Virus record (IMG/VR): IMGVR_UViG_3300027816_000252
Location: 1 to 34,425 of that record
Length of the DNA stretch: 34,425 nucleotides
DNA from: a virus
Reading direction: 5' to 3' (one strand)
Part shown: in pieces, positions 2,577-13,414 of the stretch
How the letters are laid out: each line of letters begins with the position of its first letter
How positions within the stretch are numbered: position 1 is the first letter of the stretch
Made by a program: the position numbers and the translations under genes
Notes under the pieces: model-generated
Seen by the model: the letters and a program-made list of their open reading frames with translations, nothing else
Databases searched by the model: none
What the model was told of the DNA's origin: nothing

Positions 2577-2959
2577 GGCTGTTGCGGATCCACAAGATCG
2601 TCAGTCCACGCGATCGGGGGCTTGGCAACGTGTTCCCCCTTGCTCGTAACGTCAAGATCCTTGCGCTCGATATAGCCTCGATGACGGGCCTTTGTCTTGA
2701 GGAAGAAGATCGTCGCGCTTGCCTCTTGGTTTCGGATCTGCTGAAACAGGCTTGACTCGGCAAAGTCGACGGCGACCTCCCCGAGATCCTCGACCGCGGC
2801 CTTGTATTCCTCGTCGGTGCGCATCCAGAGGTAATGCGTAGCCCGAGGGACTTCGGCCTTCTCACACGCGGCGGTAACGATGCCGAGCGTTTGGCGGAGG
2901 GCCTCGAGCATCGCCTTTTTAAGTTGTTTAGTTGTGGTTGGGCGGGCGGATCCGGGCAT
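2573..2959 (-). CDS. terS: Terminase small subunit-like protein
   Basis: A 128-residue protein directly before terL, with overlapping stop and start. The N-terminal half reads like a helix-turn-helix of phBC6A51-type small terminases (residues about 14-50, with TAACEKAEVPRATHYLWMRTD and then an EYKAAVEDL helix). It is followed by LFQQIRNQEASATIFFLKTK, a segment seen in that family, and RGYIERKDLDVTSKGE near residue 105. It should recognise the packaging site and load TerL. The assignment rests on this pattern and on gene order. Its start overlaps the stop of the upstream ParB-like gene as TAATG. Confidence 0.85.
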   Translation of the reverse strand: MPGSARPTTTKQLKKAMLEALRQTLGIVTAACEKAEVPRATHYLWMRTDEEYKAAVEDLGEVAVDFAESSLFQQIRNQEASATIFFLKTKARHRGYIERKDLDVTSKGEHVAKPPIAWTDDLVDPQQP

Positions 2960-3645
2960 TAGCTAACTCCTTGCGATTCTTGCGCTTGCCATTCTTGGCG
3001 TAGTTTAATCTGGGCGCGGGTCTCCCACGCCTTTGCATATTCGACGTTTTCAAAGAGCTTTGAGAAGCCGGTGATGTGCTTAAGTTTAAGCAGTTCTTCG
3101 GGTTCCATCCCTAGCTCGTTACAGATCGCGGCATCGGACCAGCCTCGGTCGAGCATCGAGAATACCATCTGCGCCATCCCGGTAACCGAGTGTTCACCCC
3201 GGGCGCGGTTATGGCGGACGGTCGAGGCCATGCGGTCGTTCAGGTCCTTCTCGATGACAACAACCGGGAGGTAGCCGAGGTTCCGTTCCCGGATGTCAGG
3301 GTTTGTCTTACAGGTAAAGTAGCGGTGAAAGCCGTCGACAATAACATACTTGCCCCGTTCTGTGTCCCGGATCACAACGACGGGCTGAGTGTACCCGTCG
3401 TGCTTGATCGAGGTGTAAAGGAGGGACATCTCCTTGCCCGCGACCGAGTTAGGGTTGTAGTCGTTCGCCTCGACCTGTTCGATCGGGACCCATCGGACGC
3501 GATCGACCGGCTGACCCCGAAGCGGGGATCGGACTGACAAGCTATCACGGATCTCCTCGATCGCCCGGAGCCGCTCGTCGTGGTCGTCGCAGAAGTCGAG
3601 GTAGGCCCATACCTCGTCGATAACGTCGGAAAGACTGTTAGCCAT
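2959..3645 (-). CDS. ParB/IbrB-like protein
   Basis: A 228-residue ParB-fold protein resembling IbrB/YbdM, the partner of the PAPS-reductase-like IbrA. Seen: VRWVPIEQVEANDYNPNSVA near residues 49-68, then EMSLLYTSIKHDGYTQPVVV, and the ParB box-like IVDGFHRYF near residue 107. The C-terminal part (GEHSVTGMAQMVFSMLDRGW, then ICNELGMEPEELLKLKHITG) looks like a ParB-type helix-turn-helix. In known operons IbrB and IbrA are adjacent and act together, and here the IbrA-like gene is immediately upstream with an 8-base overlap. ParB-fold proteins can be CTPases, nucleases or kinases; the activity here is unknown. Its placement between that enzyme and TerS links the pair to packaging or DNA handling by inference only. 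Confidence 0.85.
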   Translation of the reverse strand: MANSLSDVIDEVWAYLDFCDDHDERLRAIEEIRDSLSVRSPLRGQPVDRVRWVPIEQVEANDYNPNSVAGKEMSLLYTSIKHDGYTQPVVVIRDTERGKYVIVDGFHRYFTCKTNPDIRERNLGYLPVVVIEKDLNDRMASTVRHNRARGEHSVTGMAQMVFSMLDRGWSDAAICNELGMEPEELLKLKHITGFSKLFENVEYAKAWETRAQIKLRQEWQAQESQGVS

Positions 3646-4795
3646 TAATGTAGGGGTTGGTTTGAAGGTGCTTTAGGGGAATCTGGTCGCCGCGGTCGTA
3701 CTTGCGCCAAGTAGCTACCACAGGGCTCGCTTCCCAGTTGCCGAGCTTTGTAAACTCAAAGTCGTTAGCAAGGATACTGCCGATCTCGGCCTTGTGCCGC
3801 CTTTCTTGCGACCGCATACGGGCGTACTTGACATCTAGCTTTGCAAACTTGCGGGCGAACCCCTCCCTCTTGTCGTCGTCCGTTATCAGGTACTTAAGGA
3901 GGTGATCTCGGTACTCGGCCCACGTTGCAAACATCGGCGGCAGGGTTTTAACTGGCTCGAGGGCGACCTGTTGTAAGTGCTTAACGGTATTAATGCCACG
4001 GAGCCGGTAGACAAGCCGATTCCACGTTGCCGGTTCGATTTCCTGTAGGAACCGGAGGTGCTTGGTCGCGGTTTCGTGATGCAGATTGCTAACGCGCATA
4101 TCCTGAACGTGGTATCCGTACTGATACATTTTGTTATATATGTCGCAGTAGGTCCATCCGTTTGAGTGTATCGCTTTCCACACATCGCGGTAGCCCCAAT
4201 CATAGATCGGGTAAAAGTTGTAGTGCCCCCGCTTTCGGTCGGAGATCGTGCCCCACGTTGCCCACTTATAGGTTGCTTGCATCGTTACCCCCATCGCCCG
4301 GGCGGGGCTCTCCTCGGCCCGGACGCCACCGATTGTTGCAACCGGCGTGTTAGGGTAGTAATGCCGAATCAGGGCCGGGAATAGCTCGGCGAACCGATCG
4401 GTATCCGTCGGGTTCTCCGTGACGGCCTGAGGCCACTTCTGTCGCATCCAGCGGGCTTCGTCCTCGGGGTTCCAGCACCAAAGCCACGGTTCCTCGGCGC
4501 TCGTCGCGTTAAAGAGGCGCATCGGCATCTGAAACCAGAGCGGTTGGACGCGGGAATCCTCCATAACGGTCTGCACATAGTCGACCGTCGCTTGCCACTC
4601 GGCCTCCTGATCAATCCACATTACCGGGACCGGGAGCCGCCCCCGCCGCTCGGCTTCCTCAAGCGTAAGGTTTAGCACAACACAAGAATCCTTGCCGCCA
4701 GAAAAGCAGACGACGACTTGCGGAAACTCGTCAAACAGCCACGCGATACGCTTGCGGGCCGCGGTAAGCACATCCTCTGATAAGTAGATCTTCAT
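3638..4795 (-). CDS. PAPS-reductase/IbrA-like PP-loop enzyme
   Basis: A 385-residue phosphoadenosine-phosphosulfate-reductase-superfamily protein (adenine nucleotide alpha-hydrolase fold). The PP-loop SGGKDSCVVLNL is at about residues 32-43. It is followed by PVMWIDQEAEWQATVDYV (second strand and helix) and IGGVRAEESPAR near residue 158, a typical PAPSR loop. The C-terminal part (FYPIYDWGYRDVWKAI, NKMYQYG, MRVSNLHHE) matches the IbrA/YbdN (DUF3440-like) type rather than a sulfate-assimilation CysH. Related PP-loop enzymes activate sulfur for DNA phosphorothioation (DndC) or tRNA. No sulfur donor or carrier gene is visible here. It overlaps both neighbours, so the genes are probably translationally coupled. 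Confidence 0.88.
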   Translation of the reverse strand: MKIYLSEDVLTAARKRIAWLFDEFPQVVVCFSGGKDSCVVLNLTLEEAERRGRLPVPVMWIDQEAEWQATVDYVQTVMEDSRVQPLWFQMPMRLFNATSAEEPWLWCWNPEDEARWMRQKWPQAVTENPTDTDRFAELFPALIRHYYPNTPVATIGGVRAEESPARAMGVTMQATYKWATWGTISDRKRGHYNFYPIYDWGYRDVWKAIHSNGWTYCDIYNKMYQYGYHVQDMRVSNLHHETATKHLRFLQEIEPATWNRLVYRLRGINTVKHLQQVALEPVKTLPPMFATWAEYRDHLLKYLITDDDKREGFARKFAKLDVKYARMRSQERRHKAEIGSILANDFEFTKLGNWEASPVVATWRKYDRGDQIPLKHLQTNPYING

Positions 4796-5723: not shown

Positions 5724-6040
5724 ACGGGCTTTCGCTGGCGCACGATCGGGGCGCGGTTAAGCACCCGGGTTTGCTCGATCGGGTTCCCCATCGTCCAATA
5801 CTTCCATTCCCCGATATTGAGGTAAACAAAGGTTCGCTTGCCGAACCGGTCCTCGTACCCATAGGTGCGCACGATCTCGACTGCCTCGGTAAAGGTAAGG
5901 CCGGGACCATCGTTCCATCGCTCGCGCAGGGCGTATTCGTGCGGGATCCACGGCATCGTTTTAGCAAACGTCCAGATCTGCCCCGGGATGGCGTCTGTAA
6001 GTCGCGCCAACGCGACCGACCGCTCGTTAACCGTCGACAT
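5720..6040 (-). CDS. Conserved phage protein of unknown function, aromatic-rich
   Basis: A 106-residue protein with motifs WTFAKTMPWIPHEYALRERW (residues about 23-42), FTEAVEIVRTYGYEDRF, and NIGEWKYWTMGNPIEQTRVL near residue 75. The concentration of Trp, Tyr, Pro and His in fixed blocks suggests an enzymatic or ligand-binding domain rather than a linker. I cannot name the family. It overlaps the glycosyltransferase-like gene by four bases and the ParB2 gene by 14, so it is part of the same cassette. Confidence 0.75.
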   Translation of the reverse strand: MSTVNERSVALARLTDAIPGQIWTFAKTMPWIPHEYALRERWNDGPGLTFTEAVEIVRTYGYEDRFGKRTFVYLNIGEWKYWTMGNPIEQTRVLNRAPIVRQRKPV

Positions 6041-6554
6041 AAAAATCGTGTGCGCAGTTAGGACAGGTCATTTGCTTCTGTGTAGTGCCGCGGCTAAACG
6101 GGTCTTGTAGCTTTTCGGAGGCGGCATTAATATCGCGATCCGTTACGGTTGTCCGATCGGCTTTGGGGTCCTCGTTTGGGAGGAACGGAAGGTCAAGCCC
6201 CCACGACGTTAACTCATACACATCCCAGTCGTCGTGATTTTCAAAGAAGGAGGAAAAAGCAAACTCGCCAGCGTGTACGTTGTCCTTAATGACAAGCTCC
6301 CGCTGTTGTGCCTCGGTAAGATCGGCGGCACGGATAACAGGTACATCGGACATCCCGATAGTCCTTGCGGCCTGATACCGTTGATTGCCAGCGAGAATCA
6401 TCCCGTTGCCATCGACGATAATCGGGCGGAGCTTAAGCATCTCGGGAAAGGTGCGCACGCTCTCGACGAGCCGCTGAAACTTGGCATCGCGGACAAAGCG
6501 CGGGTTCTTGGGGTTCGGGTAGATGTCCCCGACCGGTACAAGGGCATACTCCAT
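6027..6554 (-). CDS. ParB-like N-terminal-domain protein (ParB2) with CxxC tail
   Basis: A 175-residue protein with a typical ParB N-terminal domain (PF02195 type): YALVPVGDIYPNPKNPRF, LRPIIVDGNGMILAGNQRYQ (the ParB box as AGNQRYQA), then VPVIRAADLTEAQQRELVIK and DNVHAGEF. The C-terminal end has CPNCAHDFY, a single CxxC pair that may bind zinc on dimerisation. I chose the ATG at 6552-6554, preceded by GGAG with a 6-base gap; the longer open frame upstream overlaps another gene and looks non-coding. In phages such proteins often accompany adenine methylases or modification genes, but no methylase is present here. It differs from the IbrB-like protein at 2959-3645, so the cassette holds two distinct ParB-fold proteins. 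Confidence 0.85.
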   Translation of the reverse strand: MEYALVPVGDIYPNPKNPRFVRDAKFQRLVESVRTFPEMLKLRPIIVDGNGMILAGNQRYQAARTIGMSDVPVIRAADLTEAQQRELVIKDNVHAGEFAFSSFFENHDDWDVYELTSWGLDLPFLPNEDPKADRTTVTDRDINAASEKLQDPFSRGTTQKQMTCPNCAHDFYVDG

Positions 6555-6555
6555 T

Positions 6556-6732
6556 CTAGTCTCCGAGAGCAAGGTTAAAGCATTCGCGGCACAGCCAGAG
6601 TTGCATCGGTACCGTATCCGCGCCAATCCGTTCCGGTAACACAAGGGGAAAGAGTGCGTCCTCTGCCTCGAGGCACCCGTCGCAAGTACCATCGGGCGTC
6701 GGACTAATGAGTTGGGAGGTGAGTTCTGTCAC
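6556..6732 (-). CDS. Small zinc-binding protein, two CxxC motifs
   Basis: A 58-residue protein that starts with GTG at 6732. It has CDGC near residues 17-20 and CREC near residues 48-51, spaced like a treble-clef or zinc-ribbon phage microprotein. The stop TAG lies one base before the ATG of ParB2, and its last codons (CTC GGA GAC) contain the ribosome binding site of ParB2. No clear Shine-Dalgarno sequence precedes the GTG, so coupling to the overlapping upstream gene is likely. Confidence 0.7.
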   Translation of the reverse strand: MTELTSQLISPTPDGTCDGCLEAEDALFPLVLPERIGADTVPMQLWLCRECFNLALGD

Positions 6733-6835: not shown

Positions 6836-6968
6836 AGGGCAGTTTAGGGTAGGATCGTGGCGGTTTGGGGTAAGCTCGCTCTCCCGTTTGTGCGCACCGA
6901 ATGTTGTGAATGCGGATCGCCTCCGCATCCGTGCGGCTCTCGTCGCAAACCGGACAACGCCTTGTCAT
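6810..6968 (-). CDS. Small zinc-finger protein
   Basis: A 52-residue protein. CPVC at residues 5-8, a helix with IRIHNIRC, and His/Cys at about 21 and 25 give a C2HC-type finger (CxxC-x12-H-x3-C). A basic, proline-rich tail follows (PKPPRSYPKLPYVPRPPRR). The ATG overlaps the stop of the preceding gene as TAATG, which supports translational coupling. It may bind nucleic acid; no family name is claimed. Confidence 0.65.
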   Translation of the reverse strand: MTRRCPVCDESRTDAEAIRIHNIRCAQTGERAYPKPPRSYPKLPYVPRPPRR

Positions 6969-7366
6969 TATTTCTGCCGCTCGGCAACGCGCTTTTGTAT
7001 CTGTCGCACTACTGTCGGATGATAGAATCGTACCCGACGCCCGCCAAAGCTGACGACCTTGCAGGGTAGTCGCCAGCGGTCAATAAGGTGTCGGAGCTTA
7101 TTCTCCGGCATCTCGACCATGTGCGAGATCTGCGGTAGCCGGAGCCATCCCTTTTTGTAGGTATACTGCGGAGTAGGCTTCCGGTACTGCGTCTGCTCAA
7201 TATCCGTAACAACGGTCTGTACGGGTTGAAACTTGAATACATCGAGCCGGTAGGAAATTGCCGAGACGACAATACCGCCCCCGCAAAGCGCGGAGGCGGT
7301 CTGCTTATCCGGGGCCGTTACGGTCTGCGCCACGGATCCGTCGTTATTCAACTGATGCCATTTCAT
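6968..7366 (-). CDS. Putative helix-turn-helix DNA-binding protein
   Basis: A 132-residue protein from ATG 7364-7366, with GGAG nine bases upstream. The longer open frame would overlap the upstream gene almost completely and was rejected. The N-terminal part has no recognised motif. The C-terminal 50 residues (WLRLPQISHMVEMPENKLRH, then LIDRWRLPCKVVSFGGRRVR and FYHPTVVRQIQKRVAE) read like an excisionase/MerR-type winged helix: helix-turn-helix, an R-rich wing, and a closing HPTVV helix. It may be an early regulator. Confidence 0.65.
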   Translation of the reverse strand: MKWHQLNNDGSVAQTVTAPDKQTASALCGGGIVVSAISYRLDVFKFQPVQTVVTDIEQTQYRKPTPQYTYKKGWLRLPQISHMVEMPENKLRHLIDRWRLPCKVVSFGGRRVRFYHPTVVRQIQKRVAERQK

Positions 7367-7565
7367 CTGTCGCAACTCCGACGTGACCGATCCGATTGCC
7401 GTTTGTGTCCCGGAGAACGTGATGCCATTGACGGAAGATCTGATTGTATTGCTCGTACTCTGTGATAAAGTGGCGCGTCGCCTGATTAAGCACCTCGGAC
7501 ATTTCGCCGAGGGGATCGGAGACAAAGGCGTCGTTGTCAAGGTAGAACTCGATCGTAACCTTCAT
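7344..7565 (-). CDS. Hypothetical protein
   Basis: A 73-residue protein, MKVTIEFYLDNDAFVSDPLG at the N-terminus, followed by a long helix (MSEVLNQATRHFITEYEQY) and NGNRIGHVGV. The beta-strand start plus helix pattern is common in small phage early proteins, but I do not recognise a family. It has an ATGA overlap with the upstream DUF3846-like gene and a 23-base overlap with the next one. Confidence 0.7.
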   Translation of the reverse strand: MKVTIEFYLDNDAFVSDPLGEMSEVLNQATRHFITEYEQYNQIFRQWHHVLRDTNGNRIGHVGVATDEMASVE

Positions 7566-8030: not shown

Positions 8031-8246
8031 TTAGTTGACCTCGAGGTTGACGGGAGAAAAGCGCGAGATGCTAACGTAACCGGCGAACCGCGGCTTGCCC
8101 TCGAGGTTGCGGAGCGTAATCAGGACGTTGGCGACCCCTTCCTGATTGTGAATGTCGGCGACCCGGACCCGGATCGACCGATGCTCGATGATGTCGCCGA
8201 CCCGAAGATCCTGCGCTTGCTTAGATCCGACCGCGGTGCTTGTCAT
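8031..8246 (-). CDS. Hypothetical protein, first gene after promoter P3
   Basis: A 71-residue protein whose ATG at 8244-8246 is preceded by GGAGG with a 4-base gap; this ribosome binding site fixes the start, because the longer frame runs through the promoter. The sequence (LRVGDIIEHRSIRVRVADIH, then NVLITLRNLEGKPRF and YVSISRFSPVNLEV) is all beta-like. It resembles small SH3/Tudor-like or PIN-less hydrolase-insert barrels, with no certain family. It is the leading gene of the P3 transcript. Confidence 0.75.
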   Translation of the reverse strand: MTSTAVGSKQAQDLRVGDIIEHRSIRVRVADIHNQEGVANVLITLRNLEGKPRFAGYVSISRFSPVNLEVN

Positions 8247-8287: not shown

Positions 8288-8317
8288 AGAATACAACCCC
8301 CCCTTGTCGTCTGTCAA
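8288..8317 (-). promoter_or_regulatory. Promoter P3 with operator-like dyad
   Basis: On the minus strand: -35 TTGACA (8312-8317), 18-base spacer, -10 TATTCT (8288-8293). The -35 lies inside CTTGACAGACGACAAG, the same block as in P1 and P2; its arms CTTGAC and GACAAG form a dyad with one mismatched pair. The stop codon of the helix-turn-helix gene (TGA 8314-8316) lies inside the -35. The transcript leads to the gene starting at 8246. Confidence 0.8.
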
Positions 8318-8571
8318 GAGGCGTCCTTAATCTTTTTCTCGATCTTGTCATCTGTTACATTATATGCAGGCTTCCCTGCATATGCGCCCTTGTATTGCAT
8401 AAGGCTTGCCATATCGATCCGCCAGTAAAAGCCGCGCCCGCCATAGGCTGTTGGACTAAGATCCGCCTTTGCTCGGACCTGTCCGCGCTTAATCCTCTGG
8501 TGGATCCGCTGTCGAGTGACACCGAGAAAGCGAGCGGCCTCGGCAACGGTAATCCAGTTTTCCTCTGTCAT
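8314..8571 (-). CDS. Excisionase-like helix-turn-helix protein
   Basis: An 85-residue protein. ITVAEAARFLGVTRQRIHQR (residues about 7-26), IKRGQVRAKADL and GFYWRIDMASLMQYK form a complete HTH_17/MerR-type winged helix. A lysine-rich tail follows (DDKIEKKIKDAS). No integrase is visible, so a transcriptional role is more likely than excision. Its last codons overlap promoter P3, which makes it a natural candidate for controlling P3 (inference). Confidence 0.8.
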   Translation of the reverse strand: MTEENWITVAEAARFLGVTRQRIHQRIKRGQVRAKADLSPTAYGGRGFYWRIDMASLMQYKGAYAGKPAYNVTDDKIEKKIKDAS

Positions 8572-9616: not shown

Positions 9617-9809
9617 CGGGTCCTGTGTGATCGCCGGATAACCGGCAAGGTTGCGGATTACACCCGCCGCAATATGGTCCGCCATCCGTAAGATCCTCGC
9701 CGCACGACGGACAAACCTCGCGCTGTTTTTTACTAAAGGTGTCAAGGCCGCTGTTCTCCCAGTTGTCGTTGTGATAGTCATTGTCGGACATATCGAAATC
9801 ACCCGCCAT
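9594..9809 (-). CDS. Small zinc-ribbon protein
   Basis: A 71-residue protein. An acidic, Asn-rich N-terminus (MSDNDYHNDNWENSGLDTF) is followed by CPSCGEDLTDGGPYCGGC (residues about 33-50), a four-cysteine ribbon spaced like zinc-ribbon domains. The tail has no structure I recognise. The start may be 9809 or 9791; neither has a strong ribosome binding site, and the 9809 start overlaps the upstream gene by 11 bases. Confidence 0.6.
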   Translation of the reverse strand: MAGDFDMSDNDYHNDNWENSGLDTFSKKQREVCPSCGEDLTDGGPYCGGCNPQPCRLSGDHTGPDAPDRAS

Positions 9810-10179
9810 TCGCTACCGTCCGCCCGAGGGCCGTAATCCGGCAGACGTTAGCCTCAGAGCCGTAGCTTGTTACCGCGGTCTCCCCGGTCGGCTCGATATA
9901 GCCAAGCCGCCGGAGATCGGAACACCGCTTCCAGCCGCCCGGGATCTTGGCGATAGTCGATGCCTGTTCGTCGGTCTGCGGGCCCTCGAGGTAGGCGCGG
10001 AGGATCCGCATCGCTTGCGAGGTACGGCGGGGCGCGTTCCGATCTGCCGCCTTGTGGCTAGTCTCGGGATCCGTCGTCCGTGCCGCGGGGAGCCGGGACG
10101 CGACCGCATCGACGATTGACCAGAGGCCCCCGATCGCGGCATATCGGCGCTGAATAGAAAGCTCTGCCTCGTCAGTCAT
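9799..10179 (-). CDS. Winged-helix DNA-binding protein
   Basis: A 126-residue protein. After an N-terminal segment with DPETSHKAADRNAPRRTSQA (residues about 37-56), a winged helix follows: MRILRAYLEGPQTDEQASTI, then GWKRCSDLRRLGYIEPTGET and CRITALGRTVANGG. This pattern (DPxTSxxAA plus wHTH ending in a LGR motif) is common in phage early genes and probably acts as a regulator or in replication. The ATG overlaps the stop of the acidic microprotein. Confidence 0.8.
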   Translation of the reverse strand: MTDEAELSIQRRYAAIGGLWSIVDAVASRLPAARTTDPETSHKAADRNAPRRTSQAMRILRAYLEGPQTDEQASTIAKIPGGWKRCSDLRRLGYIEPTGETAVTSYGSEANVCRITALGRTVANGG

Positions 10180-10351
10180 CGTCGCCCTCGTTATCGCCGC
10201 CGCTGTCGCGGTCGTCATAGTCGGCATCGTCGTACTTGCCGGGATCGAGCGCGGCCTCTGCCATCATCTCCCGGTATTCCTTGCTTGTAAGGCCCGGGCT
10301 ATTGCTCGGGCCGTGATAGGAACTGCCGTAGCCGTATTGACCGTTGCTCAT
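10172..10351 (-). CDS. Acidic microprotein
   Basis: A 59-residue protein. A Gly/Tyr/Ser-rich N-terminus (MSNGQYGYGSSYHG) and a short helix (LTSKEYREMMAEAALD) are followed by a strongly acidic tail in which about 13 of the last 22 residues are Asp or Glu. The ATG at 10349-10351 has GGAG five bases upstream and overlaps the stop of the preceding gene; its own stop overlaps the next ATG. A DNA-mimic or inhibitor role is possible but not shown. Confidence 0.7.
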   Translation of the reverse strand: MSNGQYGYGSSYHGPSNSPGLTSKEYREMMAEAALDPGKYDDADYDDRDSGGDNEGDDD

Positions 10352-11705: not shown

Positions 11706-11896
11706 GGGACGAATGCCGCCTCTTGAGAGTTTATGTCCGTTTCCGTCAGGATGTTTTCTCGAACGTGCCACGTTCGGATGCCGCTTGCCGAGGTCTTGGC
11801 TTCGGCAACCGAGCCGTCGGAGAAAAAGGAAAGAATGCCAAGCCGCGGATCGTAAAGCACCTGTACGAGCGTGGCGTCGGATGCGATCGGCTTCAT
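11702..11896 (-). CDS. Hypothetical protein
   Basis: A 64-residue protein, MKPIASDATLVQVLYDPRLG then LSFFSDGSVAEAKTSASG and a WHVRENILTET segment. It is predicted mainly beta. Its ATG overlaps the previous stop by four bases. The family is unknown; the reading frame is supported by the coupled overlaps on both sides. Confidence 0.65.
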   Translation of the reverse strand: MKPIASDATLVQVLYDPRLGILSFFSDGSVAEAKTSASGIRTWHVRENILTETDINSQEAAFVP

Positions 11897-12078
11897 ATCT
11901 GCCGACCGCCGAGGATTAGGTGCGTCATCTCGACCATCTTGCGGTAGCGGAGGGCCTGTACGATCTCGTTGCGCGTAGCGGCAAACTCGGCATCGCCTAG
12001 CTGATTGCCCTGCAGATCGAGGACTTGCCCGATCCAGTTTTTCGTGTCGCGGTCGTACCAGATCCGAGTCGTTGTCAT
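11893..12078 (-). CDS. Hypothetical protein, first gene after promoter P2
   Basis: A 61-residue protein, TRIWYDRDTKNWIGQVLDLQ then DAEFAATRNEIVQALRYRKM. The beta-hairpin followed by a helix resembles the HicB/RNase-H-like or other small alpha-beta early proteins, but no catalytic motif is present. AAGG lies five bases before the ATG. The P2 start point should lie about 20 bases upstream. Confidence 0.7.
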   Translation of the reverse strand: MTTTRIWYDRDTKNWIGQVLDLQGNQLGDAEFAATRNEIVQALRYRKMVEMTHLILGGRQI

Positions 12079-12105: not shown

Positions 12106-12134
12106 AGGATACTACGGGGCTTGTCGTCTGTCAA
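12106..12134 (-). promoter_or_regulatory. Promoter P2 with operator-like dyad
   Basis: Minus strand: -35 TTGACA (12129-12134), 17-base spacer, -10 TATCCT (12106-12111). It carries the block CTTGACAGACGACAAG, identical over 16 bases to the one in P3. It reads into the gene starting at 12078, with a leader of about 20 bases. The gene upstream of it ends at 12138, so the promoter fills the intergenic gap exactly. Confidence 0.8.
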
Positions 12135-12137
12135 GGG

Positions 12138-12485
12138 CTAGAAGTTGTAATCGTAAAACTTGCGCGGCGTGTCGGAGAGGACGTACTGGTTACGGTACCG
12201 GTCGTACCAGCGCCCGTCCTTGTGAAGCCGGATGCGGACGATGCCCGCGTCGGGGTTGCTTGTAATAATCCAGCGTTGCTGACTCTGATTAACCGCGTGA
12301 CCGGCGAAACCGCCGGGGATCCACTCTAGCTGAAAGGTCTTGTCGCGCTCGGCGTTCATGTGCCGGATCTCGACGGTGCGACCCGTAACGTTTCTGACAA
12401 TCTCGTAAGGCTCTACGTCAGTCCAGCCGAGGCGGTTTGCGTACTGAAAGATCCCTGCGCGATTAAGCGGGGCGGCGAGTGTCAT
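12138..12485 (-). CDS. Hypothetical phage protein
   Basis: A 115-residue protein. MTLAAPLNRAGIFQYANRLG, then RNVTGRTVEIRHMNAERDKT, then LEWIPGGFAGHAVNQSQQRW and a C-terminal YVLSDTPRKFYDYNF. Strands alternate with charged loops. The same kind of protein is common in early regions of unrelated phages, but the function is unknown. The ATG overlaps the previous stop as TAATG. Confidence 0.7.
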   Translation of the reverse strand: MTLAAPLNRAGIFQYANRLGWTDVEPYEIVRNVTGRTVEIRHMNAERDKTFQLEWIPGGFAGHAVNQSQQRWIITSNPDAGIVRIRLHKDGRWYDRYRNQYVLSDTPRKFYDYNF

Positions 12486-12688
12486 TAGCGGGCGACCTCG
12501 CGCAGTTCGAGGATGCGGCTTCCCCAAAACCCGTCGCGCTGTAGGGCTTCGATGTACTCGGGGAGCATCGAGGTATAGACCTCGGCGGAAACCCCGCCAT
12601 CGTATCGGTCGCGGAGGCGACGCGAAAGGAACGTGACCTTAGTGGTCGGCGCGTTCGGATCGTCGGGAAGGTCGATAAGATAGTCCAT
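12485..12688 (-). CDS. Hypothetical protein, first gene after promoter P1
   Basis: A 67-residue protein, MDYLIDLPDDPNAPTTKVTF then SRRLRDRYDGGVSAEVY and IEALQRDGFWGSRILELREV. GGAGG lies seven bases before the ATG, a sequence (CGGAGGTAG) shared with the first gene of the P3 transcript. The family is unknown. Confidence 0.7.
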   Translation of the reverse strand: MDYLIDLPDDPNAPTTKVTFLSRRLRDRYDGGVSAEVYTSMLPEYIEALQRDGFWGSRILELREVAR

Positions 12689-12732: not shown

Positions 12733-12761
12733 AGTATAGGGCCCCTCTTGTCATCCGTCAA
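12733..12761 (-). promoter_or_regulatory. Promoter P1 with operator-like dyad
   Basis: Minus strand: -35 TTGACG (12756-12761), 17-base spacer, -10 TATACT (12733-12738), the best -10 of the three. The surrounding block CTTGACGGATGACAAG differs from P2/P3 at two positions only. Its leader shares CACCGTAGGC and the CGGAGGTAG ribosome binding site with the P3 leader. It follows the only long gene-free stretch in the genome. Confidence 0.85.
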
Positions 12762-13120
12762 GAGGGTACACAAAAAAGATTTGTAACAAAAACTTGCGGG
12801 ATCCGCGGCGATGTATATCTTCGGGCTCGCGGTACGGCGGGCTTACTCTCGGTTTCCCGCCGGTCGATAGAGCGAACTATCGGCACACAATCCTAACCGT
12901 GCTAGCGTCGCCTTTACACAAATCCGGGCCCTGTCAGCCTACAACCCGGTCGGTCATCGAGGCGTATCGTTAGGAGCTAGACGGTCTAATAGCGAGCCCG
13001 TAGGTCACCCGTCGAGGGGTACTCTCACGCCCGGAGAGACACGCAGACGGCCCCATCGCTAGACTTTCGCCCCGCGTAGCACCCACACCCGGGCTGATGA
13101 CCGGGAATGGCTCGGGTCTG
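12762..13120 (-). other. Gene-free, hairpin-rich region upstream of P1
   Basis: About 360 bases without a supported gene. Hairpins seen: CGATAG/CTATCG with a 6-base loop at 12865-12882, extendable to 8 pairs; the palindrome TAGAC-N-GTCTA at 12978-12988; CTCTC/GAGAG at 13022-13038; and an ACCC/GGGT hairpin beside it. CGAGCC near 13110 can pair with GGCTCG near 12995, enclosing the last three. Possible roles are replication origin, a structured RNA, or the end point of the late transcript. No T-loop-like motif of a tRNA was found. Confidence 0.5.
12788..12806 (-). terminator. Weak candidate terminator before P1
   Basis: On the minus strand GCGG-ATC-CCGC is followed by AAG and then UUUUU. The stem is only four pairs with a tight loop, so this is a weak intrinsic terminator at best. 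The position, at the end of the gene-free region just before P1, is where the late transcript should end. Confidence 0.25.
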
Positions 13121-13414
13121 CTATGGCAGAAAGCCCATCGGTTTCCGGCGTTTTGCCTCAGGCGGTAGCACAAAAGTTTCCATATCGTCGTCCTCTGGCA
13201 CCTCAAAGCCGCCACCGTAGGCACTCGGCCCCTCGAGAACAAGCTCGTCATAGCCCGCGGCGACGAGTTGCCGCATCATATCGAGCAGTTCCTTTGCCAC
13301 GACGCCCGCATCGAGCGCCGGAACATCGCCGATCTCGATCGACAGGCCGTTGCGGTGAAACGTTACCGACGCCTTGCGGTTAACAAATGGGCTAACTTTA
13401 CGTTTCGAGGCCAT
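13121..13414 (-). CDS. Hypothetical protein
   Basis: A 97-residue protein. A basic N-terminus (MASKRKVSPFVNRKASVTFH) is followed by IEIGDVPALDAGVVAKELLD and a helix, with an acidic stretch (EVPEDDDMETFVLPPEAK). It is the last gene before the gene-free region. No family is recognised. GAGG is about nine bases before the start; the gene overlaps the previous one by 17 bases. Confidence 0.7.
   Translation of the reverse strand: MASKRKVSPFVNRKASVTFHRNGLSIEIGDVPALDAGVVAKELLDMMRQLVAAGYDELVLEGPSAYGGGFEVPEDDDMETFVLPPEAKRRKPMGFLP

Follow-up and report, generated by a model that had tools for sequence, protein, structure and literature searches.

A candidate operator fused to the -35 element of three putative early promoters in an uncultivated soil phage, with variants in related lineages

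In the cluster A mycobacteriophages (the L5 family), 20-30 sites are distributed genome-wide, mostly not at promoters, and the repressor, a monomer of two domains, recognises an asymmetric 13-mer (excerpts of PMC6550527, PMC9283540). In cluster K, each extended start-associated sequence (ESAS) is an imperfect inverted repeat of 17 bp whose spacer varies, located next to a start-associated sequence (excerpt of PMC3203893). Among small winged-helix proteins, XisF4 and P2 Cox have an additional role as regulators of phage promoters (excerpt of PMC7379572), and BldC occupies direct repeats in a head-to-tail manner (excerpt of PMC5859096). A literature search on early phage promoters with shared or Xis-type operators found nothing on point, and an earlier description in print may exist.

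The locus described here is similar to the cluster A operators (excerpts of PMC6550527, PMC9283540) in having a putative repressor site at early promoters, with a motif that varies among related phages; judged by sequence only, its sites contain the -35 elements of three promoters, P1, P2 and P3. It differs from them in that the window (the whole stretch of DNA analysed, 34,425 bases) has three sites, all at promoters and partly dyadic. It is also similar to the cluster K ESAS, an inverted-repeat element upstream of many phage genes whose consensus differs between subclusters (excerpt of PMC3203893), with the difference that the element here extends a -35. The locus provides a concrete candidate operator, a candidate regulator and natural sister-lineage variants for a phage group in which no cultured member was found, and makes operator-regulator co-evolution testable with short DNA and small proteins.

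The window is the entire IMG/VR record of an uncultivated soil phage. All genes read are on the minus strand, and recognisable proteins include a terminase, head and tail proteins and an Mre11-like exonuclease. The two ends of the window (positions 1 and 34425) are joined on a second contig (loci L037 and L051), with 413 extra bases between them (blastn); the genome is therefore circular or circularly permuted and the record nearly complete. Regarding relatives, megablast of positions 1-25000 against 50,697 phage records revealed none that was close or cultured, protein matches were remote only, and a host scan of a genome collection gave a single remote match. Two ParB-like (ParB_N) proteins (2959-3645 and 6027-6692) are encoded beside a PAPS-reductase-like protein (3638-4795).

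The three promoters, detected by motif and promoter scans, and the first open frames behind them are as follows:
12747-12762, minus strand: operator-like 16-mer of P1, CTTGACGGATGACAAG, containing the -35 TTGACG (motif and promoter scans)
12733-12738, minus strand: -10 of P1, TATACT, after a 17-base spacer (promoter scan)
12485-12688, minus strand: first open frame after P1, 67 aa, no function found
12120-12135, minus strand: operator-like 16-mer of P2, CTTGACAGACGACAAG, containing the -35 TTGACA (motif and promoter scans)
12106-12111, minus strand: -10 of P2, TATCCT, after a 17-base spacer (promoter scan)
11893-12078, minus strand: first open frame after P2, 61 aa
8303-8318, minus strand: operator-like 16-mer of P3, CTTGACAGACGACAAG, containing the -35 TTGACA and the stop codon of gene 8314-8571 (motif and promoter scans)
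8288-8293, minus strand: -10 of P3, TATTCT, after an 18-base spacer (promoter scan)
8031-8246, minus strand: first open frame after P3, 71 aa, from an ATG behind a ribosome site

A first-pass annotation of this DNA had reported the 16-mers on the minus strand at P1, P2 and P3 and the -10 hexamers TATTCT, TATCCT and TATACT; the motif scan bore out the places, and the hexamers are as claimed, while the equal distance it gave between -35 and -10 was incorrect, the spacers being 17 (P1), 17 (P2) and 18 bases (P3). Its description of the 16-mer arms as a dyad with one mismatch holds for the window, in which five of six positions are complementary and the mismatch is A5/A12. All three promoters match the sigma-70 type, which asks for hexamers near consensus and 16-18 bases apart; the -35 has the full consensus at P2 and P3 and is one base off at P1. 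Between 6000 and 15500, seven promoter-like sites were found against 3.1 expected from shuffles, and P1-P3 were the sole sites with 10 of 12 sigma-70 matches. Allowing up to three mismatches, the 16-mer had four matches in the window, where 0.62 were expected and none of 100 shuffles reached four. The fourth match (8344-8359, three mismatches) is within chance and was rejected as an extra site, and stoperator-like sites away from promoters were not found in the window beyond P1-P3.

Regarding the leaders, those of P1 and P3 have CACCGTAGGC and CGGAGGTAG in common, as had been noticed in the initial reading, and none of 2000 shuffles reached their alignment score, whereas the scores of P1-P2 and P2-P3 were reached by 246 and 228 of 2000 shuffles, respectively; by this comparison the shared P1/P3 leader looks like a duplicated cassette. 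P2 has only the 16-mer in common with the other promoters, and its leader is unrelated to that of P1 or P3.

A scan with the exonuclease yielded 35 loci; group A denotes loci of at least 68% identity and the far group those of 49-53%. The criteria for promoters were TTGAC or TTGAT, a properly spaced -10, and a start codon behind a ribosome site; the extension beyond the -35 was ignored. This gave 21 non-redundant group-A promoters, from which one located inside a spanin-like gene (L098 9598) was left out; 19 of the remaining 20 came from exonuclease-fetched loci, and the other (L137 809) was obtained with the motif-bearing pattern, yet carries the CGTATAG variant. This search in relatives, which the first-pass annotation had suggested, detected the motif TTGAYRNNYGNCAAG in 17 of the 20 promoters and the variant TTGACAGGCGTATAG in three, so that a motif first spotted in raw sequence by eye was borne out in relatives gathered without its help. 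Positions 7-16 of the 16-mer had an identity of 0.80 within genomes and 0.71-0.77 between them in these 20 promoters, compared with 0.28-0.39 for the adjoining seven spacer bases, and G11, A15 and G16 were present in all 20 sites. Retention of the extension while the adjacent spacer diverges indicates that it is under selection beyond what a sigma factor explains.

The dyad, in turn, is suggestive at the group-A promoters. The arm pairs TTG-C/G-CAA are complementary in 20, 17, 17 and 19 of the 20 sites, that is, four of the eight arm pairs nearly always are, and to this extent the proposed dyad stands; the other inner pairs are complementary in 3, 2 and 5 of 20, the outer C-G pair is kept in only 13, and the left arm is set by the -35 itself. 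In three sites CGTATAG replaces CGNCAAG, with the loss of two arm pairs, which counts against the operator model; a T at position 12 is confined to these three. On these counts the pattern TTGACANNYGNCAAG is a better description of the group-A sites than the dyad. Reading the site as direct repeats instead (GACA and GNCA at a distance of 7 bp) was weighed by eye and dropped. In 11 records of both groups TTGACANNYGNCAAG had five matches, all at group-A promoter places, with none on the other strand and none for the reversed pattern. A collection-wide scan with the full promoter pattern found 23 stretches; 17 of these were new, of which 15 encode proteins of the phage family and two do not. A scan of IMG/VR with the 16-mer returned 76 stretches, mostly uninformative; in a blastn check five of these loci (L020, L037, L051, L055 and L066) matched the window.

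Other lineages have other extensions. Sister lineage D (L183 and L184) has a perfect dyad, TTGAC-WW-GTCAA, at the equivalent promoters, in the form TTGACAAGTCAA or TTGACTTGTCAA at both L184 promoters and one L183 promoter, the second L183 promoter reading TTGACAAGTAAA. In lineage E (L254, L255 and one site in L251) TTGACAGNCTC is common to three promoters, those of L255 being on the opposite strand from its exonuclease; lineage E promoters also have leader bases in common, so part of this signal may be due to duplication. In a test of ten promoters from four lineages, each represented by one chosen genome (the window, L110, L253 and L255), identity of the extension was 0.70 within genomes and 0.32 between lineages; label permutations did as well in 4 of 20,000 cases for the extension and in 5773 of 20,000 for the spacer control. 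Lineage B is an exception that counts against the operator model, as the two L110 promoters have no common extension (0.20). The initial proposal that conservation past the -35 reflects a bound protein is supported by the retention of the extension in relatives when the neighbouring spacer is not retained, and by the difference between lineages in the extension shared. The far-group promoters L110:3675, L111:12902 and L108:12890 have TTGGCATTACTCTATTGGCACC around the -10 in common; made of TTGGCA direct repeats, it is a candidate for a different far-group operator.

Regarding the protein that might bind the operator, P3 is flanked by two small HTH proteins, and an inverted pair is located upstream of it:
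8314-8571, minus strand: 85-aa HTH_17 protein with a predicted winged helix, best candidate operator binder (Pfam HTH_17 at 2e-07, predicted fold, helix that tracks the motif); its gene ends inside the P3 -35
6968-7540, minus strand: second HTH-like protein, downstream of P3, rival candidate regulator (HTH region; homologues match HTH_17 weakly in two records)
8363-8382, no strand assigned: inverted TATGCAG pair upstream of P3, conserved in many relatives

A scan with an HNH-like neighbour gene gave 79 loci, of which 78 (L167-L244) were examined. These contain 32 HTH_17 genes of the 8314-8571 kind, several of them on contigs already counted in the earlier sets, and each of the 32 is followed closely by a TTGA[CT] promoter. 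Where that promoter carries the motif or its variant (18 genes, 14 facing NNYGNCAAG and four facing GGCGTATAG), the gene always encodes the helix [ST]RQx[IV]HQRI; the other 14 genes never do, having HAW, FVW or HHW helices and facing other sequences. Within HQRI, Q and R are the same in all eight group-A proteins, and the five far-group proteins differ at both positions. The recognition helix of the 8314-8571 protein thus appears to change with the operator, a correlation drawn from few independent lineages.

Among the three candidate binders put forward in the first-pass annotation, it is the 8314-8571 protein that follows the motif most closely; 9799-10227 was rejected, as tblastn gave no match to it in several motif-bearing loci, and 6968-7540 homologues differ without constraint in their HTH region even between genomes whose operator is the same. 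The AlphaFold model of the 8314-8571 protein is a winged helix of modest confidence (mean pLDDT 70), whose closest folds are Pukovnik Xis and BldC (TM 0.75-0.85 of the target, weak E values of 0.04-0.4); no fold match was found at E 0.001. The protein may resemble Xis, Cox and BldC in having a small winged-helix fold, and excision is unlikely to be its task since no integrase was found. Two observations count against the operator model: BldC, the fold neighbour of the candidate binder, binds direct repeats (excerpt of PMC5859096), and a regulator similar to 8314-8571 was not found in the lineage E records examined. The 8314-8571 protein would be the likeliest operator binder, an assignment that is tentative and that we hold at well below even chances.

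We consider it rather probable that the extension is a lineage-specific operator over an early-promoter -35, bound by a phage protein, probably for repression. Host sigma-70 RNA polymerase would read TTGACA and the -10, and TTGACANNYGNCAAG would be an operator fused to the -35, a phage DNA-binding protein reading the -35 and the next nine bases. With a -35 at or next to consensus and a spacing of 17-18, the promoters should fire unaided, so the bound protein would most likely repress by covering the -35. Once accumulated, one protein would turn P1, P2 and P3 down together, and the likeliest repressor would be 8314-8571, the 85-aa putative winged-helix protein of Xis/BldC type whose gene immediately precedes P3. 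Neither an integrase nor a resolvase was found in the 11 records of both groups, which are not known to be complete, and an HTH_3 protein, the mark of a CI-like repressor, was absent from all 11, the window included (the control was found in 14 of 14 genomes); early-gene shut-off is preferred over lysogenic immunity for this reason.

Within this reading of a phage-encoded repressor, a different phage protein such as 6968-7540 could bind the operator, with 8314-8571 binding the TATGCA copies upstream of P3, an arrangement that we regard as unlikely. Of 13 loci from both groups, nine have copies of TATGCA, often 11 bp apart, located 29-84 bases before the P3-equivalent -35, even where they are outside the coding frame, and though the helix differs between the groups; the pair at 8363-8382 is likely a second regulatory element. 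Given the resemblance of the 8314-8571 model to BldC and Xis, and the head-to-tail binding of BldC to direct repeats (excerpt of PMC5859096), the TATGCA copies may be the site of this protein instead of the 16-mer. Against this, the HTH region of 6968-7540 varies freely under the same operator, whereas the 8314-8571 helix does not.

Alternatively, the extension could be read by an activator or a polymerase-redirecting phage protein, the sites switching one gene class on. The -10s are only moderate (TATACT, TATCCT, TATTCT) and the sites are confined to promoters, as this would lead one to expect; activator-dependent promoters usually have a poor -35, whereas here P2 and P3 have the exact consensus, P1 departs from it by one base and the spacing is ordinary, and we judge activation to be quite unlikely. 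We give a similarly low rating to a host protein that binds the extension, or a host sigma factor that prefers it, with no phage regulator involved: members of the same phage family whose gene order is similar lack the extension or share another, a point that differing hosts would weaken. Recent duplication of promoter cassettes, with the 16-mer shared by common descent only, is very improbable, since the clearly related P1 and P3 leaders and the leader bases common to lineage E promoters are outweighed by a P2 leader that is unrelated even though its 16-mer is identical to that of P3, which contradicts duplication as sole cause, and by divergence of the spacer adjoining a 16-mer that has not diverged.

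Extending the repressor reading, a small Xis/BldC-type protein could be a master early repressor acting via -35 operators in phages without recognisable lysogeny genes, the lineages having swapped operator-protein pairs (TTGACANNYGNCAAG, TTGACWWGTCAA, TTGACAGNCTC) and retained promoters of this kind, which would keep relatives from cross-regulating each other during co-infection; this extension is speculative and we think it doubtful.

An element of about 300 nt beside P1 (12830-13131, plus strand), predicted to be a structured RNA and perhaps more interesting than the promoters, has compensatory changes in 27 of 62 pairs among 15 sequences; none of 500 shuffles matched its structure on any of five measures, and its G-U pairs favour the plus strand. 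No match was found in Rfam 15 at E up to 10 (window and L100), and the element is possibly a new RNA family. A covariance model, built from several of the 49 sources searched, some of which are the same contig, detected it in 28 of the 49, plus an 18-bit fragment in L089. It has the direction of the exonuclease in all 18 full-length matches among L091-L121, and is inverted in the window and the near-identical L088, the L089 fragment being oriented as in L088.

A further structured element, about 110-140 nt long, not seen in the window and without a gathering match in Rfam for eight loci, follows the 13121-13414 homologue in relatives (L091:2986-3111, L096:11915-12048, L110:3043-3166 and others). 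Ten of its 22 pairs are changed on both sides among 12 sequences, it has its own TTGAC promoter before it and a terminator-like end, and, on visual inspection, a pseudoknot can form between its first loop and a stretch downstream.
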